Assembly (NCBI RefSeq): GCF_014529625.1
Contig: NZ_CP076039.1
Location: forward strand, 1,364,001 to 1,428,000
Length of the DNA stretch: 64,000 nucleotides
Direction: 5' to 3'
Origin: Candidatus Pelagisphaera phototrophica
Lineage (GTDB): Bacteria; Verrucomicrobiota; Verrucomicrobiia; Opitutales; Opitutaceae
Made by a program: the position numbers and the translations under genes. The notes beneath the pieces were generated by a model. It searched no databases and had not been told where the DNA came from. It worked only from the letters and a program-made list of their open reading frames with translations. Below, piece after piece: positions 49,961 to 64,000 of the stretch. Within the stretch, counting starts at the first letter, position 1; every line of letters starts with the position of its first letter.

Positions 49961-50380
49961 TCATTCGAGATCAAGACGCATATCCACGTGGTCGATTCCG
50001 GCCTCAATGTAAACGTCGCCTAGACGTTGAAATCCGAACCTCTCGTAAAAGTTGACTGCCTGAATTTGCGATGACAGTTCAACCTGTTTCCATCCTCTCT
50101 CGCGGGCGGCCTCGACCAGCTTCAGGAGTACCTTCTGTCCAACTCCTGTTGATCGGTACTCTTTGAGGACCGCCATTCTACCGATATGTCCGTCTGGCAA
50201 GAGGCGACCGGTACCGATCGGGAGGCCTCCGTCATACGCGATCGCGTGAACGCACTCCGGGTCCCTACCATCAACCTCTAGGCTTGGTTCGACACCTTGC
50301 TCAGCTACGAAGACATCGAATCGTATTTGGAGGATACTGGATTCAAGTGGGCTGAATTGGGTAAGTTCTATGCGGATCAT
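49961..50380 (-). CDS. GNAT family N-acetyltransferase
   Basis: From ATG 50380 the protein has 139 residues (MIRIELTQFSPLESSILQIR); a longer frame reaches 50413. The acetyl-CoA-binding core shows RFDVFVAEQGV, CVHAIAYDGGLPIGTGRLLP, motif A IGRMAVLKEYRSTGVGQKVL and the late QIQAVNFYERFGFQRLGDVY, then a final metal-type EAGIDHVDMRL. This last part resembles ElaA/YjcF-type acetyltransferases. The substrate is not known. It has no operon neighbours. Confidence 0.85.
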   Translation of the reverse strand: MIRIELTQFSPLESSILQIRFDVFVAEQGVEPSLEVDGRDPECVHAIAYDGGLPIGTGRLLPDGHIGRMAVLKEYRSTGVGQKVLLKLVEAARERGWKQVELSSQIQAVNFYERFGFQRLGDVYIEAGIDHVDMRLDLE

Positions 50381-50599
50381 GGATATAAAAGTCTGGGTTT
50401 TGATGACTGCCAAAAGGATCCATGAAAAGTAAAAATTAGAGGTAGATTAAATCCCGATTCCGCTTTAATATCGCCAAATCTCAAGTTTACGTTCTCATTA
50501 AGTTATCCCTCTATTCCCAATTTTGCGAATCCTTCGGTATATTGATTTAAGAATGTCGAAAAGGAACGTATAGTCCCAAGACGGTTTCTTACAAATTAA

Positions 50600-51907
50600 A
50601 TGTTTCCCACCTGGCTACGAATCTTTGCGATCACTTCAATTGGCTCATTGACTTCCTATTCGGTGGACTCGGAACCGATTGAGGGGCCACCGCTTGTCTT
50701 TGCCCATGACCTGGTGGGAGAAGAGCTTCGAGAGGGAGAGCGTTTCAAGCTAGCCCCAATTGCATATGTGGTAAATTTTGGATACGAGTTCGATTTGGAT
50801 AGCGATTTCGGCGACTTTCATGCTCGAGGCATCAAGATGCTGGAAGTGACTGCCCATGAAATAGACGCGCTCGAGAAGTTGGAGGAAATCACCAAAACCA
50901 AGGCCTTTACGACGTCTTTTTCGGAGGCCCTGAAGAACCCAATTGTCCGCTCATGGGCGGTAGCGCGAAGACCGGTCACTACGGTTGCTCGAATTCCTGG
51001 TGGTATTGTCCGTTATCTGCAGGGAAAGTTTTTTGAGGTAAAACGGGGGTCAGAAAAGTTAGCGGCGAAAACTAAGGAGCATCGATACAGAGGTGAGAGT
51101 AATGAGAAAGAGCCAGTCGCGGAAAAGGTTACGGACGCAGCAAAAAAAGTAGGCAGCACGACAAAGAAATTGAGTCGCCGGCACTTGGGGTTCGACAAGG
51201 CGAAACGGGATTGGTCGAGGCGTTTGAAGGTTGATCCCTACACAACCAACGACTACCTGCAATTTGAGTTGGAGCGGATAGCGTGGGCTTCCTCGGTTGG
51301 TTCCTTCGCAGGTGAATTTGCCATTCCTTCCAGTTCGGTGCTCTCGTACACGCTCCAAGCCCAGGAAATGGTTTGGAGCAAGTCTGAAAAGGAGCTAGAA
51401 AGGTTAAACTCAAAATCCCTGAAGACGATGGGTGTCGACACAAGTGTTCTCGTCCAGTTTGACGAACTAGACCAATATACGCTGACGGAAAAGACAGAGC
51501 TAGTGATCACACTAGAGGAGATCGAAGTGGATGGCAGGCTAGACCTCATTCAACTAATGCTAGAAGTAGAAACGCGGGAGGAAGCGATGCTGATGGTTAA
51601 GATCATCTCTGCGATTGGAAATTATCACCAACTGGTGAAGCCGATCGAGGAGGTTGCGATTCGCAGAGGCCTTGCGGTCTGCTACGACGAAGAGGGAACG
51701 ATGGTACTCCCTCTGGCTTTAGATTATTTGCACTGGTCACAGGAGATCTCAGAAGTGTTGCTTTCGAATGATCTCTATGACGAATCGCGGTCTTTATGGA
51801 TTAGTGGAACCGCTTCTGCGATCGCTAAAAGAAGGCTGGCGACCCACGATTGGAAGCTGAAAGAAAATTGTTTTGATAGCTTTGCTGCCCTGCAACCGAA
51901 TCCCTAA
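50600..51907 (+). CDS. Exported protein of unknown function, 435 residues
   Basis: The N-terminus (WLRIFAITSIGSLTSYSVDS) looks like a weak signal peptide. The next part, VFAHDLVGEELREGERFKLA followed by IAYVVNFGYEFDLDSDFGDF, is beta-rich. A conserved-looking TVARIPGGIVRYLQGKFFEV near 130 is followed by a Lys-rich linker (about 150-195). The rest is long helices with VDPYTTNDYLQFELERIAWA. The pattern 'P.gv...vG..f..v...........K' followed by a 'vDPYT.N..Lq..L..iAwa' resembles a group of proteins seen in proteobacterial and verrucomicrobial genomes without known function. It stands alone. Confidence 0.6.
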   Translation: MFPTWLRIFAITSIGSLTSYSVDSEPIEGPPLVFAHDLVGEELREGERFKLAPIAYVVNFGYEFDLDSDFGDFHARGIKMLEVTAHEIDALEKLEEITKTKAFTTSFSEALKNPIVRSWAVARRPVTTVARIPGGIVRYLQGKFFEVKRGSEKLAAKTKEHRYRGESNEKEPVAEKVTDAAKKVGSTTKKLSRRHLGFDKAKRDWSRRLKVDPYTTNDYLQFELERIAWASSVGSFAGEFAIPSSSVLSYTLQAQEMVWSKSEKELERLNSKSLKTMGVDTSVLVQFDELDQYTLTEKTELVITLEEIEVDGRLDLIQLMLEVETREEAMLMVKIISAIGNYHQLVKPIEEVAIRRGLAVCYDEEGTMVLPLALDYLHWSQEISEVLLSNDLYDESRSLWISGTASAIAKRRLATHDWKLKENCFDSFAALQPNP

Positions 51908-52058
51908 TAAGATTTGCCGTGTTTTAAGACCCTCTATGAGGCAGTCGTTGCCGAAGCCGTGACTTCAGAAAATTCCCAGTGAAAGGATAATTTTCAATTG
52001 CCTCGTTAGAGAAAGCGTGTAATGGTTAAGGTCAGAATCCTAATCCCCCTATAGAATT

Positions 52059-53501
52059 ATGTTATCTCGTCGCAAATTTATTAAATCGTCTGCTTTGGCA
52101 GCGAGCACCTTCGCGATCACGCCCTCATGGGCAAAAGCGGCAAATGGTGATGTCCGAGTAGCCGTGGTCGGCGTTCGCGGACGTGGAAAGAGCTTAATTG
52201 CCGATGTATTCCGTACCGAAGGGTCTCGGTTGGTCGCACTTTGTGACGTGGATACAGCGGAACTCGCAAAACGGGCTGCCGCGGTTGACGAAGAATATGG
52301 CGTCATTGTTAGCCAGGAAACCGATTACCGCAAGCTGCTCGAGAGAAAAGATGTCGATGCGGTCGTCCTGACGACACCGAATCACTGGCATGCCCTGCAG
52401 ACAATCTGGGGTTGCGAGGCGGGAAAAGATGTTTATGTCGAGAAACCCGTGTGCCACACGGTTTGGGAAGGTCGCCAGATGGTGGCTGCAGCAAAGAAAT
52501 ACAATCGTATCGTACAGGCTGGTTTCCAAAATCGTTCTGATGTTGGGCTGCAAGAGGCGTTTCCCTGGATTCATGCGGGTAACATAGGTGAAATCAAGAT
52601 GGTGCGTGGTTTGTGCTACCGAAATCGAGCGAGCATAGGGAAGATCGATACTTCTCTGGTGCCGCCAAAATCGGTCGATTACGATAAGTGGCTTGGCCCT
52701 GCTGAACACCAAGACCTCTACCGTCCGGAATTACACTATGATTGGCACTGGGATTTCAATACCGGCAATGGCGACTTGGGAAATCAAGGTCCCCATGAGC
52801 TCGATTTAATGCGCTGGATTCTTGGTGATCCGGATCATCCGGTTAAAATCCAGTCGTTGGGAGGTCGATTCGGATGGGACGATGCCGGCGATACGCCGAA
52901 TATGGGTGTCACTACATTCGATTGGGGAGGAATTCCGGCCCTGTTCGAGGTGCGCAATCTATGGGTGAAGCCTGAACTGAACAATGCCCCAAACTTCAAA
53001 GGCTCCCGTGTTGGCGTTATTGTAACTTGTGAAGGCGGAGAATTCCGAGGAGGTCGAGGCGGAGGATTCGTCTATGACAATGACGGTAAGCGGGCGAAGG
53101 CATTCAAGGGTGATCGTGGTTCTAATCATTTCCCTGCGTTCGTGAAAGCTGTGAATAGCCGCAAGGAAAGCGATGTGGCGGCTCATTTGGAGAGCGCTTA
53201 CAAATCCAGTTGCCTGGCGCATCTCGGAAACATTTCTTACTTGAAAGGTAAAGATGCTGAAGGGAAGTCAGTCGGGAAGTTTGCGTCGAAGGATGGAGTA
53301 CTCGAGGAAACACTAGGGCGCTATAATGAGCAAATGGCTGAGTGGAGCATCGATCAGTCGAAAGAGCTGTGGAAGCTAGGCCCTGAGCTTGAATTCGATG
53401 CGCGATCTGAGAAATTCACTGGAGGAGATTCATACAAGCAGGCCAACAAGCTCCTCAAGAAGAACTACCGACCTAGCTACGCGGTACCCTCTATCGTCTA
53501 G
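52059..53501 (+). CDS. Tat-exported Gfo/Idh/MocA oxidoreductase
   Basis: A 480-residue protein with a twin-arginine signal (SRRKFIKSSALAASTFA). The NAD-binding Rossmann part has RVAVVGVRGRGKSLIADVF, DAVVLTTPNHWHALQTI and the conserved EKPVCHT (EKP motif). The second domain has HYDWHWDFNTGNGDLGNQGP HELDLMRW in two pieces, where the histidine is the usual catalytic residue. Proteins of this type in Verrucomicrobia and Planctomycetes oxidise or epimerise sugars in the periplasm. The substrate is unknown. It ends before a strong terminator. Confidence 0.9.
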   Translation: MLSRRKFIKSSALAASTFAITPSWAKAANGDVRVAVVGVRGRGKSLIADVFRTEGSRLVALCDVDTAELAKRAAAVDEEYGVIVSQETDYRKLLERKDVDAVVLTTPNHWHALQTIWGCEAGKDVYVEKPVCHTVWEGRQMVAAAKKYNRIVQAGFQNRSDVGLQEAFPWIHAGNIGEIKMVRGLCYRNRASIGKIDTSLVPPKSVDYDKWLGPAEHQDLYRPELHYDWHWDFNTGNGDLGNQGPHELDLMRWILGDPDHPVKIQSLGGRFGWDDAGDTPNMGVTTFDWGGIPALFEVRNLWVKPELNNAPNFKGSRVGVIVTCEGGEFRGGRGGGFVYDNDGKRAKAFKGDRGSNHFPAFVKAVNSRKESDVAAHLESAYKSSCLAHLGNISYLKGKDAEGKSVGKFASKDGVLEETLGRYNEQMAEWSIDQSKELWKLGPELEFDARSEKFTGGDSYKQANKLLKKNYRPSYAVPSIV

Positions 53502-53524
53502 AAAGGTTCGCTGGAAAAACTTTG

Positions 53525-53563
53525 AACCGAGCTTTGGGATTCTCTTGAGGCTCGGTTTTTTTT
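53525..53563 (+). terminator. Rho-independent terminator after the oxidoreductase
   Basis: Stem AACCGAGC (53525-53532) and GCTCGGTT (53550-53557), eight pairs, with a 17-base loop, running straight into an eight-base T-run. It lies 24 bases after the stop and separates this gene from ribE. Confidence 0.9.
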
Positions 53564-53618
53564 GTTCTTGGTATAAATCCGTTGCACTTGGACTTTGAAT
53601 TCGGATTAATTCTGGGAA

Positions 53619-54215
53619 ATGTTTACAGGTCTTGTTGAAGAAAAGGGCGAGGTGCTGAGCTTTCACGAGCAACCGGAGGCTTGGCGGATGAGAGTACGGG
53701 CAAACTTGGTGGCTCAGGAATTGGAGTTGGGTGACAGTGTGGCGATCAATGGGTGCTGCCTATCAGTTGTCGAAATCAGCAAGACGATTTTAACCTTTGA
53801 TGTGCTTGAAGAGACGCGGCGGCTGACAAATCTCAAAAATATCGATCCCGGATCTAAGGTGAATTTGGAGAGGAGCCTGCGCTTCAACGGCCGTGTAGGT
53901 GGACATTTTCTGACGGGGCACGTAGATGGTTCAGGCAAAATCGTGGAGCTCGGAATTAGAGCTAAGGATGTCATCCTGAAGATTGAAGTCCCAAGAGAAT
54001 TTGAACACTATCTGGTGTACAAAGGCTGCATCGGAATCGATGGAATTTCTCTGACGGTTGCTGAAGTTGAGGAAAATGTCCTTACGGTTTGGCTGATTCC
54101 TCACACGCTCCAAGTGACGGGGTTGGGTGATTTGAAGCGAGGGGATAAAGTGAATCTAGAGTTTGATCTACTTGCCAAATATACCGAAAAAATCCTGTCC
54201 AAACAGGAACGCTAG
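53619..54215 (+). CDS. ribE: Riboflavin synthase, alpha chain
   Basis: A 198-residue protein with the two-fold lumazine-binding repeat. It begins MFTGLVEEKGEVLSF and has GDSVAINGCCLSVVEI, LEETRRLTNLKN, RFNGRVGGHFLTGHVDGSGK and the second repeat CIGIDGISLTVAEVEEN with VWLIPHTLQVTGLGDLKRG. It converts two lumazine molecules to riboflavin plus a pyrimidine. No FMN riboswitch was seen in the short leader after the preceding terminator. It abuts the uracil-DNA glycosylase gene (TAG ATG), suggesting coupling. Confidence 0.95.
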   Translation: MFTGLVEEKGEVLSFHEQPEAWRMRVRANLVAQELELGDSVAINGCCLSVVEISKTILTFDVLEETRRLTNLKNIDPGSKVNLERSLRFNGRVGGHFLTGHVDGSGKIVELGIRAKDVILKIEVPREFEHYLVYKGCIGIDGISLTVAEVEENVLTVWLIPHTLQVTGLGDLKRGDKVNLEFDLLAKYTEKILSKQER

Positions 54216-55136
54216 ATGAGATCTCAAATAAATAGCGTCGTTGATGAGCTGAAACGTTTGCGAAAAGAGGGACAGGATCGCATTTATGTATCGGAAGAGT
54301 CCCTACGCGACTTGAAATTGGCGTTAGGGAAGATTGTAGCGGAAGATTCTGAAAAGGAAATGGAGAGTGCGGTTGCTTTGATACCCGATAGAATACGTTC
54401 GGCAACAGCGGAAGATTTTAACCGGGTTCTCAAGGAAGAACCAAAAACGGCTAGTAAAACCTCTGGTGATAGAAAAGCTACCCTTGGAATACCACCTGCA
54501 TTTGAATTGCCGGAAGGCAACAAGCAAAAGCGTTGGGACGCGTTGCGGGAGATCGTACTAAATTGTCCGAAATGCAACGAGAATAAGCGAGAGGGCTATC
54601 AGCTAGTGTTTGGAGTAGGTAGTTTGGATGCTGATATCTTTTTTTGTGGCGAAGCTCCCGGAGCAGACGAAGAAGAGCAGGGGGAGCCTTTCGTCGGTAA
54701 AGCCGGACAGTTGCTCGATAAGATGATTGGCGCCATGGGGCTTGCTCGTGAGGAAGTCTATATTGGAAATATCATGAATTGGCGTCCGCAGCTTCCTACC
54801 CGAGTGGGCAATCGACCGCCAACAATCGGTGAGATTGAATTTTGCCTCCCATATTTAAGGGCTCAGATTGAGGTCGTTAAGCCAAAGCTGATCGTGGCGC
54901 TAGGTGCGACTGCAGCGAAGGGCTTGCTTGGGTCGAAATCGTTTCGTAGTTTGAGGGAAGTAAAAGGGGAGTGGAGGGAATTTGAAAAAACACCTTTGCT
55001 CGCCACTTATCATCCTTCGTATTTGCTCCGAAACGACAGCAAGCGAGATAAGCGATCTGCGTGGGAAGATCTGCTGAAGGTGATGGAGCGTTGCGGCCTA
55101 CCGATTAGTGACCGGCAGCGAGGGTATTTTCTCTGA
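54216..55136 (+). CDS. Uracil-DNA glycosylase, family 4
   Basis: A 306-residue protein. The first 105 residues are helical and not conserved (VDELKRLRKEGQDRIYVSEE). The glycosylase domain follows: Cys pair in LNCPKCNENK, motif A FFCGEAPGADEEEQGEPFVG, KAGQLLDKMIGAMGL, YIGNIMNWRPQ, a third cysteine in EIEFCLPYLR and motif B LLATYHPSYLLR. These are hallmarks of the [4Fe-4S] family 4 enzymes, which remove uracil from DNA. The fourth cluster ligand is probably among the neighbouring cysteines; the exact residue was not fixed. It starts directly after ribE. Confidence 0.92.
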   Translation: MRSQINSVVDELKRLRKEGQDRIYVSEESLRDLKLALGKIVAEDSEKEMESAVALIPDRIRSATAEDFNRVLKEEPKTASKTSGDRKATLGIPPAFELPEGNKQKRWDALREIVLNCPKCNENKREGYQLVFGVGSLDADIFFCGEAPGADEEEQGEPFVGKAGQLLDKMIGAMGLAREEVYIGNIMNWRPQLPTRVGNRPPTIGEIEFCLPYLRAQIEVVKPKLIVALGATAAKGLLGSKSFRSLREVKGEWREFEKTPLLATYHPSYLLRNDSKRDKRSAWEDLLKVMERCGLPISDRQRGYFL

Positions 55137-55457
55137 ATCTCAAGCGCTTTCCTCAAAGAGTGTCCAACAAGTCAGAATGTGTATCGTTGCCTGCCAGATA
55201 AGCCTACCGCAAGGCGGGCACGGGGTGGGTATCCACTGAATGGCTGTTCCCCGCACTCTCAACACAGCGCCAGGCATGTCTGGCGGGCAACCCAACTGGC
55301 AACGCACTTTTTCCCTTTTGGCGGCGTTGCGATTGAGGGCCAAGGCCGTTCGGCTGAGTTCAGGCCTAAGCCCTACTGGCATTTGCACCTCACCCACGCC
55401 TTGCCAGAGAAGAAAAATGACTGCTACGATGCCTATTCTGATTTGTTGGACGATCTC
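55137..55457. repeat. GC-rich self-complementary element, possible dispersed repeat or structured RNA
   Basis: This stretch is richer in G+C than the flanks and can fold strongly. GTTGCCTGCCAGATA (55186-55200) pairs with TGTCTGGCGGGCAAC (55277-55291) over 15 bases, counting two G-U wobbles. Inside are CCGC/GCGG, CACGGGG facing CCCCGCA, GTGG/CCAC and the alternative hairpin GCCAG/CTGGC. A run of T residues follows at 55309. Frames are open on both strands (85 codons minus, 95 plus), and the minus one contains PELSRTALALNRNAAK. Such overlapping frames are typical of a non-coding repeat, not of a real gene. It lies between two convergent genes. Confidence 0.5.
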
Positions 55458-57779
55458 TTAGTTTAAATCGGAGGAAGTCAGTTCAGATAGCTTTTCATTA
55501 AGGAGGTCCAATGTGACGGGCTTCGCCAGTACAAGATCAACGTTTTTGGAGGTCTCATTGTCGTCGCTGATCATGTCGCCAAATCCCGTCGCCATGATAA
55601 TCGGGGTGCGTGAATTAATTGCTTTGATTTTCGCTGCGAGCTGCTCGCCGCTCATATTCGGCATTGCTCGGTCGGTGATAACAAGGTCGAAAGATTCCTT
55701 CTTGAATGCATTTAGAGCAGCTTCGCCATTCTCAAATTTCCTAACTTCATGTCCACCACTGTCCAGAAGCTCCGAAAGAACTTCGAGTAGAACTGCCTCA
55801 TCGTCGACCAGCATTATGCGGAGAGAATTGGACGATTCGGAGGAAATCTTTTTGTCGATTTTTGCTGGGGTCGCATCAACCGCAGGAAGTTGTATTGTGA
55901 CGGTGGATCCACTCCCTTTGATGGACTCAATCTCGATCTCTCCTTTGTGACATTTGACAATTCCTGCCACGATCGATAGCCCGAGCCCGGTGCCCCGTTT
56001 TCCTTTGGTGGAGTAAAACGGGTCCAAGCACTTGACCTGGATTCTCTCGGGCATTCCGCATCCGGTATCTTTAATCTTGATACAAACATTTTTTTTGTAA
56101 TCAATAATTGAGAGTGTAATGACTCCGTCTCCTTCTATCGCATCTGCTGCATTAATAACTAGATTTGATAAAGCCTGCCTGAGCTCAGGTTCGTTCCCGT
56201 GAACGCATTGACGTGATTCAACCATAGATCTGAACTCGATATTGGCCCCCCTTGCCTCGGCCTGGCTTTTCCAACGATGTTGGGTGAGGTCTTTGACTTG
56301 TTGGGCCAGTTTTTTGAGGTCAATGTCTGAAGTTGCTTCTTCTACGGAGGGTTGATTTCCATAAAAGTCTCGAAGCCGCGAGACAACAGCAGCCCCATCT
56401 TGTGCGGCAACCTTTATATTTTCGAGAAAGGAAATCAGTTTCTTGTCATCTCGCCCTCCATTTGGCATGTTCAGGAGTAGTTCCGAGAATCCGAGAATAG
56501 GGGCCAACAGGTTGTTGAAATCATGAGCGATTCCGCTCGCCATTTGGCCTATCGATCTGAGATTTTCTTGATGGACGGAGGTTTTTCGGGAATTTTTTTC
56601 GTTCGTGATGTCGGAGATCGTGAAGGCTGTGTAAAGTAAGTTCCCCTCCTGGTCTTTTAAAGGAAAAGTTTTTAGAGAGACCCAAATGCTGTCACCATTT
56701 TTTCGATGTAGTCGCAGTTCGAATGAATCCTCAATTCCTTCTCGGATGGATGAGGTTGCCTTTGATGTAGCGTTGTTTTCGATACATTCGCCAAAGAGGT
56801 CTTCAAACGTCGGTACCTCTGTTTTTCGATATCCGGTAACTTGCTTGAAAGCGTTATTCACCTCGATAATTCGACAGTTGTCTTCCGATAATTGTACCCA
56901 AGCGAGGGCGGCACTTGAGAGTTTCGCGGAAATGGTCTTCAGATTCTTGGCAGGCTCGACAAGGTCGAGGGTAAGGTCTTGGGCCAGAAGATCGAATTGC
57001 TCTTGAGAGTGTTCCCCAGACAAAAGGAGCGTTCTTACTTTTCCGTGGGAGCTTTTAAAACGTAATGATTTCGTTTCGGATCTCCCGCTTTTCTTTAAAG
57101 TCTCCAGATAGGTTATTAGATAAGTCCGATCTTCGGGATCGATTATATCAGACAGATTTTGAATTGCCGATTGGTCCTTTGGGATGCCAAAATAGTTCGA
57201 CCATTCCTCGGGTCCACCAATGAAATTGCCACTCGAATCGCAACTAAAGAAAAGAGACGGATGAATCTCTTGTTTCGTTTTGGTACTTACGGTAACCGCT
57301 TTTAGAACGATGCGTGAAAGGGAGGGCTGCGACCCGATGAAAATTGGTACTCGTTTGAGGGAAACGGGTGCGGGCTCTGAATCTCCATCTATTCTATTGG
57401 TAGAGAATACTTCATTTTGGGCATCATGTTTCAGGCTCAAAAACCAATTCGAAAACGCTTTACTGGGCTCGATGAAATCGCTGATTCGGGAGCCAAGGAT
57501 CTCTTCCTCTGACCGATTCCAAAGATTTTCACAACCACCCGTTATTTTTATGAAAAGGCCATTTCCGTCATGAAGAGACAGCGAGGCGTTTTCTCCGGGT
57601 AGGGAAAGTTGTGACAAAAGATTCCAATCCAACTCGGGAATATGTTCATCGAAATGGCTCTTGCCATTCTCCAAAGACTCAAGAACCCTATGGGGATAGG
57701 GTAGTGGCTGTTCCCGATACTCAGTACTTGAATCTACAGGCAGCGAGATGCTAGTAATCTCTGGTCGTTTACCATCCAT
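55458..57779 (-). CDS. PAS-containing hybrid histidine kinase with receiver domain
   Basis: A 773-residue cytoplasmic sensor, as no membrane segments are seen. Three PAS-like regions lie at about 65-150, 195-270 and 305-410 (the last with IEVNNAFKQVTGYRKTEVP). Then follow the phospho-acceptor helix GIAHDFNNLLAPILG, an HATPase with NLVINAADAIEGDG, KDTGCGMPERI and GTGLGLSIVAGIVKC, and a C-terminal receiver (from about 650) with MLVDDEAVL and VITDRAMPNMSG. The 'HDFNNLL' type is the HisKA group often paired with NarL regulators. It follows the regulator gene on the same strand after 152 bases that form hairpins. Confidence 0.92.
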   Translation of the reverse strand: MDGKRPEITSISLPVDSSTEYREQPLPYPHRVLESLENGKSHFDEHIPELDWNLLSQLSLPGENASLSLHDGNGLFIKITGGCENLWNRSEEEILGSRISDFIEPSKAFSNWFLSLKHDAQNEVFSTNRIDGDSEPAPVSLKRVPIFIGSQPSLSRIVLKAVTVSTKTKQEIHPSLFFSCDSSGNFIGGPEEWSNYFGIPKDQSAIQNLSDIIDPEDRTYLITYLETLKKSGRSETKSLRFKSSHGKVRTLLLSGEHSQEQFDLLAQDLTLDLVEPAKNLKTISAKLSSAALAWVQLSEDNCRIIEVNNAFKQVTGYRKTEVPTFEDLFGECIENNATSKATSSIREGIEDSFELRLHRKNGDSIWVSLKTFPLKDQEGNLLYTAFTISDITNEKNSRKTSVHQENLRSIGQMASGIAHDFNNLLAPILGFSELLLNMPNGGRDDKKLISFLENIKVAAQDGAAVVSRLRDFYGNQPSVEEATSDIDLKKLAQQVKDLTQHRWKSQAEARGANIEFRSMVESRQCVHGNEPELRQALSNLVINAADAIEGDGVITLSIIDYKKNVCIKIKDTGCGMPERIQVKCLDPFYSTKGKRGTGLGLSIVAGIVKCHKGEIEIESIKGSGSTVTIQLPAVDATPAKIDKKISSESSNSLRIMLVDDEAVLLEVLSELLDSGGHEVRKFENGEAALNAFKKESFDLVITDRAMPNMSGEQLAAKIKAINSRTPIIMATGFGDMISDDNETSKNVDLVLAKPVTLDLLNEKLSELTSSDLN

Positions 57780-57796
57780 GGAATGAATTGTGAGAA

Positions 57797-57877
57797 GAGC
57801 TGAGTCCTTTCAGCTCGGAGTCGCGTCGCAGGAAATCCCGCGGGGCGACTTGAAGTAAAACTCTATCTAAGAGTTTT
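57797..57877 (-). promoter_or_regulatory. Three successive hairpins between the regulator and kinase genes
   Basis: Read on the minus strand: AAAACTCT/AGAGTTTT (8 pairs, 57857-57877), then AGTCGC/GCGACT enclosing GCGGG/CCTGC (57819-57850), then GAGCTGA/TCAGCTC (57797-57816), the last about 18 bases before the kinase ATG. The first could attenuate transcription from the regulator into the kinase. The others may affect translation of the kinase. Confidence 0.45.
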
Positions 57878-57931
57878 CAGGCGGAAGATAGTCAAAATAG
57901 GCTGTGTAAAATGTGGAGTAGGTTTGTCGCT

Positions 57932-58570
57932 TCAGGCGAGGGAGATGAGATCGTTCTTGATCGCATACCGCGTCAAAGCCGCGACATCATGGAGATTGAG
58001 TTTTCTCATTATATTCGTACGGTGGTTGTCGACGGTTCGTACGGAAATATAGAGGCGAGCTGCAATTTCCTTAGTTGAATAACTCTCGGCAACGAGTTGG
58101 AGAATTTGTTTCTCCCTGTCAGAAAGGGGGATTTCGCTAGAGCTAGAATCTGGGTTGAGAATTAGAGAGCGCATGAGACTTGCCATCTTGGGGCCGATGA
58201 ATGTTCCGCCTCCTGAGATGATCTCGAGCGCTTTCTTAAACTCGTCGAATCCGTCCATTTTGTCGACGTATCCTTGTGCCCCAGCAGAAAGCAGTTCACG
58301 GATGTTCGCAGAGCTCGCTTTACCTGAGAAAATGAGAACTTTGACTCCGGGCACATGCAACGTTAGTCCTTTAAGGACATCGGTTCCACTGAGTTTGGGG
58401 AGACCAACATCTAGGATGACAGTTTCCGGTCTAAGTTTTATGCATCCCTGCAGTCCTTCCTCGCCGTTGCCGAACGAACCTACAATCTCGTATCCTGGTG
58501 AGAGGGAGATGAACTCGGAAACCATTTCCCTGACTGCAGTTTGATCTTCTATAATTACGACGCTTTTCAT
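57932..58570 (-). CDS. NarL/FixJ-type response regulator
   Basis: A 212-residue regulator. The receiver domain has acidic E8/D9, D54 in VILDVGLPKLSG, the switch serine in VLIFSGKAS, and K104-region QGYVDKMDG. The C-terminal LuxR-type helix-turn-helix (about 145-208) reads LSDREKQILQLVAESYSTKE then IAARLYISVRTVDNHRTNIM. It binds DNA when phosphorylated. It probably receives phosphate from the hybrid kinase encoded just downstream on the same strand. The target genes are unknown. Confidence 0.94.
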   Translation of the reverse strand: MKSVVIIEDQTAVREMVSEFISLSPGYEIVGSFGNGEEGLQGCIKLRPETVILDVGLPKLSGTDVLKGLTLHVPGVKVLIFSGKASSANIRELLSAGAQGYVDKMDGFDEFKKALEIISGGGTFIGPKMASLMRSLILNPDSSSSEIPLSDREKQILQLVAESYSTKEIAARLYISVRTVDNHRTNIMRKLNLHDVAALTRYAIKNDLISLA

Positions 58571-58887
58571 GTATTTGAACTTGCTGTTGCTCTTTATACT
58601 TACGGACTCAGAGTGTTTTTCTTAAGTAGCAATTATTCAGTAAATCATTGTATTGGGCGATTTTGCTCCTTTTCCCCTAGAGTCTCTTTACGATGTTATT
58701 TCGGATCTATGGCGAAAATGTCATGAATCAGACTCCACTTTTGACGGTTGCCCCATTGCTTCAACTCGATGGGTTAGGCAAAAAAGACGAGCCCCAGTAA
58801 AAACTGGAGCCCGCCATCCTATTCCTGCACCACAAAGTGGTTGATTTATCAAACCTACCCCCGGGTTTATATTATCTACAAACTACA
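58571..58887. other. Intergenic stretch, 317 bases
   Basis: This region contains the terminator listed at 58780-58810 and the promoter of the minus-strand response regulator. No gene was recognised. A small 61-codon plus frame at 58541 overlaps the regulator and is considered spurious. Confidence 0.4.
58780..58810 (-). terminator. Terminator after the MamK-like gene
   Basis: On the minus strand the stem GCTCCAGT/ACTGGGGC (58791-58798 with 58803-58810, eight pairs including G-U) has a TTTT loop and is followed by CGTC and a T-run of six (58785-58780). It ends the MamK-like operon about 80 bases after the stop. Confidence 0.75.
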
Positions 58888-60141
58888 CTAACGTAAAAGA
58901 TTTTGCCATTGGCGTTCGTCCGCTTGGTGAGCCGTGATCAAGGCTCCCGCTGCGACTTTCGATTTGTACGAATCGCCTGCACAAATAACTTGGCATCCCT
59001 CGAAGCCCTCTTCCAATAGGAGCGATTCGAGTGCTTCATCAAGCCCGGGGATCATGCTTCCTCCCCCGGTGATGATGATGTTTTCCAAAAGAGAAGGGAT
59101 GCTTTCAGGTTCGGCATGCATCACTAGGGTGCGGACTGCCTGGTAAATTTTTTCTAGAAGGGCGTTGCAGGCGGTACCGATTGCATCGGCTACTTCGAGG
59201 CGTCGCACCTTTCCACGTATCATTACCGGAGCGAGGACCGAATTCTTGGATCCGTTGACGAAACTATAGGTTTCCTTGATCTCGCGGCATTTGGCGACCG
59301 AGATTCCGCAATCTGGGTACTTTGCGAGAATGGCTTTTTGGATGATCCGGTCGACCGTGTCCCCTGCGAATGGGAGGCTGATTTGGTCGTCACTGGATGG
59401 ATAGTATCCTTGAATGAGGCAGACGTCCGAAGATCCGGCTCCAATATCTACGAAAATCGAATTTGTGACGGGATCTATGCCGGTTGATTCCTTGCGACTG
59501 CCGAGAGCAGCTAGGAAAGGCTCCGGGATAAGTATGACTTTGTCAAAAAGCTGGGTTACGGCTAAGCGAATGTTCTCCTTCGCCTGGGAACTGGCATTAG
59601 CTGGAGTGCCTATGACCGCCCGGTATTCCGTGTCTTTGGAGTCGCCGATACGTTCTTTCACATGGGCAAGAAAGTCACGGGCTGCTTCCAAGTCTTCTAT
59701 TGCGCCGTCTTTCAGTGGCGGAACCAAATCGAGGTGGAGTTTATGGGCGATTGCTTCGTCGCCGAAAAAGGTGGTTTGGTTGCCAGGCAAGACGTCTGGC
59801 AGTATTCCCGGACGGGAGTAGCCGACTACGGTAGGGATTAAGGCTGAAGCTTCTATAGCCTGTGCTCCGGGTTCTGCGATCTGGACATAGGTCGAGTTCG
59901 TTCCGAGATCGAGTCCCACCAAGAGCGTCTCGATGTTCGAGCGTTTAGGCTGAAATTTCCGAGTGCTCTTATCCGTCGCCTTCTTGGAGGGTGAAACCTT
60001 GGCTGCGGATTCCGGATTTTCCTCAAAATCAGGATCAGCTGTAGAAATGAGAGATGGTGAGTACGGATAGCCTAGAAATGCGTTGTCCTCAGATTCAGCA
60101 TAGAGGCTATCCGCATTTTGAGTGTCAGTCTTTTGTTGCAT
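58888..60141 (-). CDS. MamK-like bacterial actin
   Basis: A 417-residue actin-fold ATPase. After a polar, probably disordered extension (1-72) come phosphate-1 VGLDLGTNSTYV (75-86), GDEAIAHKLHLDLVPPLKDG (127-146), AVIGTPANAS, the catalytic-type Glu in IPEPFLAALG (E207), phosphate-2 VDIGAGSSDV (231-240) and the adenosine motif ITGGGSMIPGL (357-367). The segments 'pLkDG..e', 'DQISLPFAGDTVDRIIQKAI' and 'EIKETYSFV' match MamK, the magnetosome filament actin, better than MreB or ParM as I recall those families. No mam gene is in the window. MamK-like filaments normally organise cell components along the cell axis. It is in operon with the gene at 60188. Confidence 0.82.
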   Translation of the reverse strand: MQQKTDTQNADSLYAESEDNAFLGYPYSPSLISTADPDFEENPESAAKVSPSKKATDKSTRKFQPKRSNIETLLVGLDLGTNSTYVQIAEPGAQAIEASALIPTVVGYSRPGILPDVLPGNQTTFFGDEAIAHKLHLDLVPPLKDGAIEDLEAARDFLAHVKERIGDSKDTEYRAVIGTPANASSQAKENIRLAVTQLFDKVILIPEPFLAALGSRKESTGIDPVTNSIFVDIGAGSSDVCLIQGYYPSSDDQISLPFAGDTVDRIIQKAILAKYPDCGISVAKCREIKETYSFVNGSKNSVLAPVMIRGKVRRLEVADAIGTACNALLEKIYQAVRTLVMHAEPESIPSLLENIIITGGGSMIPGLDEALESLLLEEGFEGCQVICAGDSYKSKVAAGALITAHQADERQWQNLLR

Positions 60142-60187
60142 GGCTTTGGCAGAAAAAGGTTAGATTGCGTGGCGGTTCAGGGAACGA

Positions 60188-60781
60188 TCAGGATTCGGAA
60201 AGAATAGTGTCTACTCTCGCTCGGTCCAGGGTTCCCACGATTTGTTCGAGAGGAAGCATAGAGTTTGCTACTAGTTCAGAGTCATTTTTTTGCACGGCGT
60301 CGATCATGCTCCTAACATCGTTGATCGAGACGCGCCTTGCCTGTGAAGATTCCAAGGAAGTGGCTTCGGGCGAAGATAGCTTAACCCATGTCCGCTTGCG
60401 TACTGCTTCGAGGTCGTGAGCTCGCTTTTGTTGCTCTTTCAAATAGATCGCCCGGTATTTTGCCGCAACTTGTTCCTCTACTCGAGGAATGATCTGCTGG
60501 ACGAGTGTTTCTCGAAAAACGTTTTGCAGACGCATTCCCTGGTCAACGAGGGACTGCTCCTTCGTAAACATGTCTCTTAGATCTGCTTTGGCGTCTTCCT
60601 TCAGCGAGGTCGGCAAAAGTTTGATCCACGATTTGATCAGGACGGGAAGTTCCCCTTTGATTATCTGGCGCGATTCGGCATCCCGGTTCTCCCGGTGGAG
60701 TATACAGGCGGCACGAAAACGTTCGACTATGAGTGTCCAACGACTTTCCGCTTGCTCTGTAACTTTGCTCGATGCGATCAT
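60188..60781 (-). CDS. Helical protein of unknown function, partner of the MamK-like actin
   Basis: From ATG 60781 the protein has 197 residues (MIASSKVTEQAESRWTLIVE); an in-frame TTG at 60841 would add 20. It is almost entirely helical, basic in the middle and probably coiled coil: IPRVEEQVAAKYRAIYLKEQ then QKRAHDLEAVRKRTWVKL, with a C-terminal helix SINDVRSMIDAVQKNDSELV. No signal, membrane segment or recognised family. It ends 46 bases before the actin start on the same strand, so they are almost certainly co-transcribed. An adaptor, regulator or cargo-linking role for the filament is inferred only from this linkage. Confidence 0.6.
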   Translation of the reverse strand: MIASSKVTEQAESRWTLIVERFRAACILHRENRDAESRQIIKGELPVLIKSWIKLLPTSLKEDAKADLRDMFTKEQSLVDQGMRLQNVFRETLVQQIIPRVEEQVAAKYRAIYLKEQQKRAHDLEAVRKRTWVKLSSPEATSLESSQARRVSINDVRSMIDAVQKNDSELVANSMLPLEQIVGTLDRARVDTILSES

Positions 60782-61094
60782 GGACTGGTGATAGCTTGCA
60801 GAGCTAACTGCGTGCCAAATCCGTAAGTGTTTGATAAACAATATAAAACCTAAAGGATTAGCGAAGAATTCCGTGATTGAAGCGTTTTTTGCCTAGTTGT
60901 TGCGACAAAAATTGGCCGGTATTCAGACTCAAAACCGGATGGATTTCAGACAACTGATGTCTATGCGGACGTTGACTCTTGGCAAAAGCGGCAACAGAAA
61001 TCCAAAGTTGAAACCTGAGGATTGCATCAGTCGTCCAATGTAAAGTAGCATTTCCTACAATAAACCTAAAGCTTGCAGAGCCTTTTTTGACAGT
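60782..61094. other. Divergent promoter region, 313 bases
   Basis: No gene was recognised. It separates the minus-strand actin operon from the plus-strand gsp operon and must hold both promoters. TTTTTTGACA lies directly before the gspG start, too close to act as its -35. No operator repeat was found. Confidence 0.35.
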
Positions 61095-61538
61095 ATGATT
61101 ACAGAGCAAATGAAAAGAAGACGGTCACTTTCGAATAAACGTGGTTTTACCCTAATAGAGATAATGCTCGTGATAGGGTTGATGGTTCTCCTGGTCGGAC
61201 TTGTCGTAACGAATGTCGACAATCTCTTCGGGACAAACCAGGCGGAGTTGGTTCGCTTTAAGGTTAAAGAGTCCTTCAAGACACCTTTGACTAGCTATCG
61301 AATTCACATGGGCAGTTTCCCCTCGACCCAGCAAGGCTTGAAGGCGTTGGCGGTTCGCCCGGAAGGTGACGGCGGCAGATGGAGAGGCCCGTACATCGAG
61401 GGTGAAGAAAATCTGAAGGATCCCTGGGGCCACGATCTTCAATACCGGTATCCTGGCACGCACAATACTTCATCGTACGACCTTTACTCCCTCGGACCGG
61501 ACGGCACTGAGTCGGGCGACGATATTACCAACTGGTAA
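61095..61538 (+). CDS. gspG: Type II secretion major pseudopilin GspG
   Basis: A 147-residue prepilin. The leader ends KRG with cleavage before F18 and glutamate at mature position 5: RGFTLIEIMLVIGLMVLLVG. The C-terminal GspG signature is present: SFPSTQQGLKALAVRPEGD, WRGPYIEG, LKDPWGHDLQYRYPG and YDLYSLGPDGTESGDDITNW, with the calcium-binding aspartates. It forms the main shaft of the T2SS pseudopilus. ATG 61110 is an alternative start. It is first in gspGHIJK. Confidence 0.94.
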   Translation: MITEQMKRRRSLSNKRGFTLIEIMLVIGLMVLLVGLVVTNVDNLFGTNQAELVRFKVKESFKTPLTSYRIHMGSFPSTQQGLKALAVRPEGDGGRWRGPYIEGEENLKDPWGHDLQYRYPGTHNTSSYDLYSLGPDGTESGDDITNW

Positions 61539-61605
61539 TCGTTTTTGAGGAGGGTTTAAGTTGCGAGCTTAGTCCGGTTGGCATTCTGCCGGGCAGTACT
61601 AGGGT

Positions 61606-62151
61606 ATGAGCAATCAAGCGATGAAAGTTAGAGTTGGCGATTGTGATTGGCGTCGAGCGTTCACTTTGATTGAGCTGATGCTCACGATGGCCTTGATCGC
61701 CCTTTTGTCGTCGTTGTTTATTTGGAATATTAATGCGCTTTTGAAGCAAGGAGAACTGGAAGCCCTGCAGAACGAGTTGTGGGGAGCAGTAGAAAAGGCG
61801 AAGCAGGCGGCGGTGTTTAGCCGTCAGCCTCACAAGGTCCGCTTTGACGAAAAGCTTAAGTCGTTCATGGTTTCGTCGGGCGGCGAAGAGATCGCCTTTA
61901 AAGTGGACGCCAGTGGATTTGGCGAAGAAGTCGAAATCGAGGTCTTGTTTAAAATGATTCTTCCCATAGATGGTTATCGTCTTGTACGGGGCGAATTGGT
62001 CACCCATCGCGAAATCGAATCGGTTACGTTTTTTCCTGACGGGACTTGCACGCCATTCTCTGTAGATTTGAAAATTGGTGAATATGAAAGTGGATACCAA
62101 ATTGATCCATGGACGGGGTCCCAATTGACGGCTCCCGAGGAAGACGCATGA
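61606..62151 (+). CDS. gspH: Type II secretion minor pseudopilin GspH
   Basis: A 181-residue prepilin-like protein. The N-terminal signal reads CDWRRAFTLIELMLTMALIA, with glutamate at mature position 5. The residue before the cleavage point is alanine rather than the usual glycine. The rest has the beta-rich GspH-type body: VEKAKQAAVFSRQPHKVRFD and VTFFPDGTCTPFSVDLKIG. GspH is a low-abundance subunit near the tip. It overlaps gspI by four bases (ATGA). Confidence 0.82.
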   Translation: MSNQAMKVRVGDCDWRRAFTLIELMLTMALIALLSSLFIWNINALLKQGELEALQNELWGAVEKAKQAAVFSRQPHKVRFDEKLKSFMVSSGGEEIAFKVDASGFGEEVEIEVLFKMILPIDGYRLVRGELVTHREIESVTFFPDGTCTPFSVDLKIGEYESGYQIDPWTGSQLTAPEEDA

Positions 62152-62618
62152 GGGTTAGGGCGAAAAGGAAGAGGAGGCGGGGTTTTACTATTATAGAGGT
62201 GATGCTCGCCCTCGCTTTGTTTGGGGTGGCCGTAACGACCTTTACTGCGGCCTATCTAAATATTATCAATGCCATCGCTGCGATACAGGTCGACCAGGCT
62301 TATGAGCAAGACATGTCCATGATCCGGTTAGACGCGTTTTCGAGCGTTTTAGTCGAAGACTTGGAAGAGGGTGGGAAGGTTTTCACTGGAAGCCATGGTG
62401 AGGCGTCTTGGAGAGTTGAGTACGAGCCCACTTTGGTTGCTGACCTTTTTCGGGTTAGTCTTCTCATGGAAATCTTGGACAAGGAAAAAGACGAGATGAA
62501 GGAAGTGGAAGAAGTTCATTATCTGACACGACCGACTTGGTCGGACCCGGTGGAGAGGGCGGAGCTGCGGGCAGAAACAAGGGACCGGCTGCTTGCAAAG
62601 CAAAGCGGCTTGGAATAA
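62148..62618 (+). CDS. gspI: Type II secretion minor pseudopilin GspI
   Basis: A 156-residue pseudopilin from ATG 62148, overlapping the gspH stop. The leader MRVRAKRKRRRG is very basic. The processed end is FTIIEVMLALALFGVAVTT with the expected glutamate. The remainder is short and polar with WRVEYEP and a beta strand LFRVSLLMEI. GspI is part of the pseudopilus tip (GspIJK). The frame beginning at 62109 lies within gspH and is not used. The gene is two bases before gspJ. Confidence 0.8.
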   Translation: MRVRAKRKRRRGFTIIEVMLALALFGVAVTTFTAAYLNIINAIAAIQVDQAYEQDMSMIRLDAFSSVLVEDLEEGGKVFTGSHGEASWRVEYEPTLVADLFRVSLLMEILDKEKDEMKEVEEVHYLTRPTWSDPVERAELRAETRDRLLAKQSGLE

Positions 62619-62620
62619 GC

Positions 62621-63301
62621 ATGAGTCCAACAAAACAGCGAAACCGATCTCTCCGTTCGAGCAAAGGATTCACTTTGCTTGAGGTGATGTTTGCGGTGTT
62701 CATGGGTTCCGCCTTGCTGGTCGCGGCGACCGCATTTGTGTTCGCCCTAGGAGAGCTGTGGGGTAAAGGGGCAAACGTTTGGCTATTTCAGAAACACGTG
62801 CGAGGCGTATCCAGATTTTTGGAACAGTCCATACAAAAATCCGGCTGGAAGACGCCTGCGGGCGGAGCGCAGACCCCTGTCTATTGGTCAAGTCGTGGAG
62901 GTCGGGCCTATGAGAATGAGCAATTTCTAACGTTCGAACTAGACAAAAGCCCGGGTGTGCTGGTTTGGCCGGAAATGCCCTTGCCGCATGTTGTCTGCTC
63001 GCTAGAGCTGGACGGGGAGGATGGGCTCTATTTGCTTTGGCGGTCGCGGCTTGAAACAGGCTTTGAAGAGGAAGAACCGCGCAAAACGCTCATCTCACCT
63101 TTCGTCACGGAAATAAAATACTTTTATCTAGACGCTGAGGATGAGGAAGCGGAATGGGAAATTGAAGACGATCCCAATAAGGAAGCAGATGGCCAGTTTC
63201 TCTTGCCGCAGCGAATTGAAATAACCTTCGAATACGAAGGCAGAGAAGAAAAGCGACAGATCGTGCTGCCTGTCTTTTTCGACGGGGTTCCCTTTTTCTG
63301 A
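62621..63301 (+). CDS. gspJ: Type II secretion minor pseudopilin GspJ
   Basis: A 226-residue pseudopilin from ATG 62621. The leader ends SSKG, followed by FTLLEVMFAVFMGSALLVAA with glutamate 5. The body has GVSRFLEQSIQKSGW, an aromatic YWSSRGGRAYENEQFLTFEL and the late LPQRIEITFEYEGREEKRQI, the usual GspJ finish where a beta hairpin precedes the C-terminus. It forms the tip with GspI and GspK. It overlaps gspK at TGATG. The longer frame from 62537 is not supported. Confidence 0.82.
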   Translation: MSPTKQRNRSLRSSKGFTLLEVMFAVFMGSALLVAATAFVFALGELWGKGANVWLFQKHVRGVSRFLEQSIQKSGWKTPAGGAQTPVYWSSRGGRAYENEQFLTFELDKSPGVLVWPEMPLPHVVCSLELDGEDGLYLLWRSRLETGFEEEEPRKTLISPFVTEIKYFYLDAEDEEAEWEIEDDPNKEADGQFLLPQRIEITFEYEGREEKRQIVLPVFFDGVPFF

Positions 63302-64000
63302 TGATGCGCCGTCTGGATTCAAACCGATGCCATTCTAAAAAGGGCTCCATTTTGCTGATGGTGTTGGTGCTAATCATTGTCTTGAGCTACGTGTTGACAA
63401 AATTCGTCGAGCGAGCCCAGGTCGAGGTCCAAGGCGAGGGCTACTATGTCGAGCGAACACGTTTAAGGCTCCAAGCTTGGTCGATGCTCGAAGTTGCGGT
63501 TGCGGTACTGGCGGATGTGAAAGTGATAGACGAAGCCATTTACGCTCCGGCCCAAGGATGGGGTGATCCGATTGACTACTCGAAGATTGAGATTCCGGAA
63601 GGAATGAATGTGACCTTCGAGTTCATAGACGAGTCTTCGAAACTCAGTATCAACGAGCTGGATGAAGGGTCGCTCTTTCTGCTGTTTGACGAAATGGACT
63701 TTGATTTGGATGTGAGCCAGACTTTGACGAACATGCTACTCGATTGGATCGACGAGGACGACGACGCCCGAATAGATGGAGCGGAGTCGAGAGAGTACAG
63801 CACGACCGAATTAGAGATGCACCCGGCCAATGGACCGCTCCGCTCTTTGGATGAACTTTCCTCGGTGATCGGATTTAAGGACCATTTCTTCGACGAGAAT
63901 GGATTTCCCAATGACAATTTTAAACGATTGTCCGAAGTGGTAACGTACCATCCCGTGCTGCAATTGAACGTAAACTCCGCATCTCCGCTTGCTCTCCAGT
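63301..64000 (+). CDS. gspK: Type II secretion minor pseudopilin GspK, 3' end outside window
   Basis: Starts at ATG 63301 (or the next codon), overlapping the gspJ stop, and is open to the window end (233 codons seen). The N-terminus has SKKGSILLMVLVLIIVLSYV, a leader like that of GspK, which lacks the glutamate at position 5. FEFIDESSKLSINELDE, MLLDWIDEDDDARIDGAES, REYSTT and PLRSLDELSSVIGF are the GspK calcium and helical blocks, and LNVNSAS begins the second conserved part. GspK caps the pseudopilus tip. Confidence 0.9.
   Translation, partial: MMRRLDSNRCHSKKGSILLMVLVLIIVLSYVLTKFVERAQVEVQGEGYYVERTRLRLQAWSMLEVAVAVLADVKVIDEAIYAPAQGWGDPIDYSKIEIPEGMNVTFEFIDESSKLSINELDEGSLFLLFDEMDFDLDVSQTLTNMLLDWIDEDDDARIDGAESREYSTTELEMHPANGPLRSLDELSSVIGFKDHFFDENGFPNDNFKRLSEVVTYHPVLQLNVNSASPLALQ

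Follow-up and report, generated by a model that had tools for sequence, protein, structure and literature searches.

Background

The genomic window analysed here, a stretch of DNA of 64,000 nucleotides, encodes an actin-like protein preceded by a gene for a protein of no known family, and the locus raises the question of which bacterial actin is present and whether the upstream gene offers a clue to its cellular use. BeeR, an actin published in 2025, forms an ATP-dependent, three-stranded tubular hollow filament with no assigned function, and is closest to MamK, yet comes from non-magnetotactic Verrucomicrobiota (PMC11929497). The hallmark of BeeR is a disordered N-terminus, and filaments of the protein lacking it bundle in vitro; the Opitutus terrae BeeR is the protein shown to polymerise with ATP into the tubular filament (PMC11929497). 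The main text of that report names no partner for BeeR, and a literature search, with most subscription journals and all preprints outside its coverage, returned no further BeeR papers.

Organization of the locus

The window sits on a single 4.09-Mb contig of an organism that has Opitutaceae and Pelagicoccus as its nearest named relatives. The features relevant to the module are as follows.

58888..60141, minus strand: BeeR-family actin, 417 aa (NCBIfam NF053558, phmmer match to PDB 8r2n, tree)
60188..60781, minus strand: cognate partner, 197 aa, with a predicted N-terminal helical bundle, flexible linker and C-terminal motif helix
60290..60322, minus strand: partner C-terminal amphipathic motif NDVRSMIDAVQ, residues 154-164, with near-invariant D161
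60142..60187, minus strand: partner-BeeR spacer, 46 nt (-4 to 89 nt across related loci)
58786..58815, minus strand: intrinsic-terminator-like stem-loop and T run, 3' of the actin gene
57932..58570, minus strand: LuxR-type response regulator, non-core, adjoining BeeR only in the Pelagicoccus-like clade
55458..57779, minus strand: PAS hybrid histidine kinase, clade-specific neighbour, non-core

On the minus strand the partner gene is followed after 46 nt by the actin gene and then by the stem-loop, in agreement with the reading frames and spacing originally described. The partner start was taken as MIASSKVTE (60781), the longest open reading frame extending to 60841. The proposed end of the operon at a terminator is supported by a 13-bp stem followed by TTTTTT, 73-102 nt past the actin stop (58815-58786, minus strand); the count of such sites is not significant by itself (mean of 3.4 in shuffled sequence), but this stem has a good length and position for a terminator. 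An Rfam search of positions 50000-64000 found no RNA elements. Directly upstream of the module lies a divergent type II secretion pseudopilin cluster (61095-63301, plus strand) whose members are GspG (a Pfam assignment), one N_methyl protein and a further two.

Family assignment of the actin

Membership of the actin superfamily, as first proposed, is confirmed by strong matches to actin-fold profiles (Pfam MreB_Mbl, 5e-25). The protein scores 554.4 bits against the NCBIfam BeeR equivalog model NF053558 (cut-off 530), covering positions 1-349 of 349. Its score against the MamK model NF040964 is 231.8 bits, under the curated cut-off of 400, which rules out MamK membership; that against the MreB subfamily is 70.8 bits of the required 293, which rules out an MreB paralogue, and a separate MreB is encoded elsewhere in the genome (489 bits to PF06723). 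The best PDB sequence match is the BeeR filament 8r2n (phmmer E 8e-107), followed by MamK structures (4e-44). In a tree that took in only one MamK, the actin falls inside the BeeR clade with the O. terrae protein, at a moderate support of 0.72, with MamK as sister of BeeR (support for BeeR plus MamK 0.90) and MreB outside; the placement inside MreB that would have spoken against the original prediction was thus not found. Judged by sequence, the window actin is a member of the BeeR family and not an undescribed MamK relative. The MamK-like short segments noted earlier are indeed present, but are common to BeeR and not specific to MamK, and the proposal of an undescribed MamK-like actin falls, as the protein passes the BeeR model and has a published filament structure in its family (PMC11929497). 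Two weak actin-fold matches in the same genome (L003 and L004, G000:C1:3306715-3307035 and 1516228-1516752; MreB_Mbl 44 and 34 bits) group with neither MreB nor BeeR in the tree.

The window protein shares with the published BeeR (8R2N) a full-length actin core, an N-terminal extension and the phylum, in addition to passing the curated cut-off. Its extension is long, as had been predicted, with about 75 residues before the first phosphate motif, against 30-50 in the published protein and 21-77 in most relatives. Several published cross-strand contacts also differ: in a comparison of contact positions other than 252 and 380, where the paper mismatches the chain residues, E153, N246 (D), I277, L284, T307 and L385 are kept or similar, and E149 (S), R157 (L), R242 (A) and Q310 (M) are changed.

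Distribution of BeeR and conservation of the partner

BeeR was detected in 19 of 132 genomes of an order-level sample with a clean split in scores (423-613 bits, all remaining matches being below 90), in 17 of 388 genomes of a phylum sample, every one in the order of the window, and in 44 of 120 genomes of a family sample. These samples overlap, many genomes are drafts, and reading frames came from a simple script with approximate starts. BeeR is patchy and, within the samples examined, confined to one order.

The published BeeR has no described partner, whereas the BeeR of the window has a conserved one. The window partner matched nothing at a meaningful level in Pfam, NCBIfam or PHROGs; we describe the family by a profile built from 12 Pelagicoccus-type close relatives. 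A position-blind search with this profile of the 4,195 open reading frames of 41 BeeR loci gave 14 further matches (E<1e-3), all of them the reading frame directly upstream of BeeR. After iteration the partner was found in 38 of the 41 loci, always directly upstream, with the two frames overlapping where the script had set the BeeR start too early. The original prediction of an actin with its own partner of no known family, which a lack of conservation next to the actin in related genomes would have undermined, is upheld by this result.

Co-occurrence of the pair in other Verrucomicrobiota, which had been proposed as a check, was also seen across genomes (counts uncorrected for relatedness): all 17 BeeR genomes among the 388 of the phylum sample carry the partner. 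The two other matches in that sample were a pseudogene in G410 and a weak hit in G303 (E 9e-4); the latter and a match in G575, which sits inside an apparent DapA-type protein, were left out of the family. The order sample has the partner in 17 of 19 BeeR genomes (15 adjacent, 2 unlinked); in one of the remaining two, G131, BeeR lies 72 nt from the contig end, and the other, G012, is without a partner. In the family sample the search found it in 40 of 44 BeeR genomes, or 41 after inspection of G504. A recognisable partner is absent from the BeeR genomes G489 (complete), G538 and G556 of the family sample and G012 of the order sample, which indicates that BeeR does not strictly depend on the partner or that the partner is replaceable. 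The family sample yields a partner without a BeeR match in G410, where it is a pseudogene, in G552, whose BeeR has an internal deletion, and in G542, whose partner lies at the end of a contig. The conservation of the two genes as a pair far exceeds what chance would give.

The remaining neighbours vary by clade, with the type II secretion genes and two-component pair in Pelagicoccus relatives and other genes in Opitutaceae and family f2. The partner-BeeR pair is the sole constant of these loci and there is no constant third gene to point to as a cargo candidate; type II secretion and the two-component pair were rejected as constant partners, being present in one clade only. As a separate observation, the response regulator (57932-58570, minus strand) is 90-95% identical across Pelagicoccus-like genomes, and in the more distant of these identity is only 40-52% for the hybrid kinase next to it and 58-67% for BeeR.

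Loss, unlinking and duplication of the pair

Several genomes provide natural experiments. In G410, of the same genus, the locus is retained between flanking genes that are 93-96% identical, with BeeR reduced to 57 codons, the response regulator gone, the kinase a 38-residue remnant, and the partner, at 73% identity, interrupted by four in-frame stops. Since BeeR, response regulator and kinase were also lost, decay of the partner could stem from loss of the whole block. The decaying partner-BeeR-regulator-kinase block (L120 9603-10567) is bordered by genes for type II secretion and uracil-DNA glycosylase, which are well kept.

BeeR is missing from G118 and G130, two species of one genus that perhaps represent a single event, and their partner homologues retain the N-terminal body and stop before the tail; in the related G568, which has BeeR, the tail is retained. 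In G011 and G015, BeeR stands without an adjacent partner, and an unlinked partner still carries a tail of similar pattern. G487, G519 and G560 each encode two BeeRs, every one with its own partner, and the nearest neighbours of these paralogues agree in the BeeR and partner trees. Judged from this matching, species relatedness alone is an insufficient explanation; the overall correlation of the two trees (r 0.75) was set aside as evidence, as shared ancestry would also yield it. In G552 (L125 5353-5997) an intact partner lies alongside a BeeR from which about 158 internal residues are deleted in frame; the deletion may be genuine or may stem from faulty assembly.

Partner architecture and the C-terminal motif

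The helical, coiled-coil-like character first attributed to the partner is supported by AlphaFold2, which predicts three helices, of which the last is very long (58-131), and a disordered linker that leads to a C-terminal helix. Residues 1-90 mostly have a pLDDT of 93-98, and the C-terminal helix has a low one of about 62; a family-f2 orthologue has the same predicted layout with this helix at 80-86. Searches of the PDB with both models gave no significant fold match, the weak likeness of the N-terminal bundle to MIT-type three-helix bundles (PDB 1WFD, 4A5X) having a Foldseek E >1.

The linker ranges from 21 to 134 residues among partners, and the tail that follows has the pattern D/E/N-I/V-x-x-M/L-I/L-D-x-hydrophobic-L/Q. 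Among the 38 aligned members, all BeeR-linked, the central position is aspartate in 36 and glutamate in 2, and the amphipathic moment exceeds that of 97% of shuffles in 35. The median charge is -3, and an acidic, amphipathic tail of this kind speaks against membrane binding.

Proposed function and alternatives

A functional partnership between BeeR and the upstream protein is very likely. From what was observed or computed, namely assignment to the family, the order of the genes, their joint conservation and loss, paralogue pairing, predicted architecture and the motif, the reading that we consider probable, with some reserve, is a BeeR filament module in which the partner acts as an adaptor gripping BeeR by its predicted tail. 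Like the O. terrae protein, the window BeeR would assemble with ATP to form a stiff, tubular filament, and the upstream gene would supply a dedicated partner, possibly a dimer, whose helical bundle has a long third helix. A flexible linker would join the bundle to the acidic amphipathic C-terminal helix, which is the leading candidate for contact with BeeR and may dock on it. The tail may thereby grip the filament or BeeR subunits, the helical body holding a second target, either cargo or a cell site; a second target is favoured because the body survives without BeeR in G118 and G130. Of the filament with its own adaptor positioning a non-magnetosome cargo in the original prediction, the two-gene actin-partner module stands, and we infer the adaptor role and the positioning. 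Chances seem about even that BeeR is half of a two-component cytoskeleton, with an adaptor family not described before, a body that can occur without BeeR and a predicted BeeR-binding C-terminal motif, forming a dedicated filament-cargo system distinct from the magnetosome, MreB and plasmid-partition systems.

The novelty lies in the partner, BeeR itself being already described. For a structurally solved actin without a known role, the partner is a concrete lead to the use of the filament, and its co-occurrence, one-to-one pairing with BeeR paralogues and breakage where BeeR is lost provide a handle on function. The conserved tail constitutes a specific binding-site hypothesis, and the partner can be tagged, deleted or used as bait; few actin-adaptor pairs are known from bacteria, and confirmation would add a new one.

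Among other explanations, it is possible, though we think it unlikely, that the partner regulates BeeR assembly as a nucleator, capper or anti-bundling factor whose tail binds subunits. Short helical peptides bind eukaryotic actin, and the tail is predicted to form a short helix, acidic and amphipathic, at the end of a flexible linker; there is one partner gene per BeeR gene, paralogues included, and bundling of BeeR without its disordered N-terminus in vitro (PMC11929497) suggests that bundling needs control. Retention of the helical body in two BeeR-less genomes, however, suggests a separate target. Co-regulation can likewise yield conservation and co-loss, so that the partner might be a conserved operon neighbour making no direct contact with BeeR, but we regard this as improbable given the unlinked copies in two BeeR genomes, the one-to-one pairing of paralogues and the missing tail where BeeR is absent.

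DNA segregation with the partner as a DNA-binding adaptor would recall ParM-ParR, in which one two-gene operon encodes a filament-forming protein and a small adaptor that has a C-terminal helix, an arrangement that the module shares. This appears very improbable: no repeat array lies beside the operon (60782-61100, 58570-58890), in family f2 only 42-80 nt separate the partner from the gene before it, scant room for a centromere, and the predicted helical bundle has no DNA-binding family match, an absence that is weak evidence. No plasmid or phage match covered 80% of the query, and a plasmid or phage origin was rejected on this basis. We give very little credence to a filament serving flagella or bacterial microcompartments. 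FlhA is found in 34 of 44 BeeR genomes versus 32 of 76 others (p 0.0003, relatedness uncorrected), but this mere association is broken by the complete genomes G035 and G238, which have BeeR and no FlhA match, and flagellar service was rejected. Microcompartment cargo was also discarded, as shell genes are not associated with BeeR (25 of 44 versus 43 of 76) and are missing from the genome of the window itself.

Relation to known filament systems

MamK (NF040964; PDB 5JYG, 5LJV) works in magnetosome alignment. It is the sister of BeeR in the tree and has core segments in common with it, but the window actin scores under the MamK cut-off, and the neighbours tested around the module belong to a type II secretion cluster and to a two-component pair. 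ParM-ParR resembles the module in that a small adaptor gene adjoins the actin gene, and its C-terminal helix is the proposed grip; the window module differs in that it has neither a centromere-like array nor a plasmid match and that its adaptor matches no DNA-binding family. The C-terminal peptide of FtsZ binds the actin homologue FtsA, and this short conserved tail on a disordered linker has a D-I-x-x-hydrophobic pattern resembling the partner tail, although the partner is a helical protein and not a tubulin, and homology is not shown. Pelagicoccus-type partners carry a second short stretch after the motif, LSLDDIVxxMND (residues 166-197, 60191-60286, minus strand), which looks like a degenerate copy of the tail motif.
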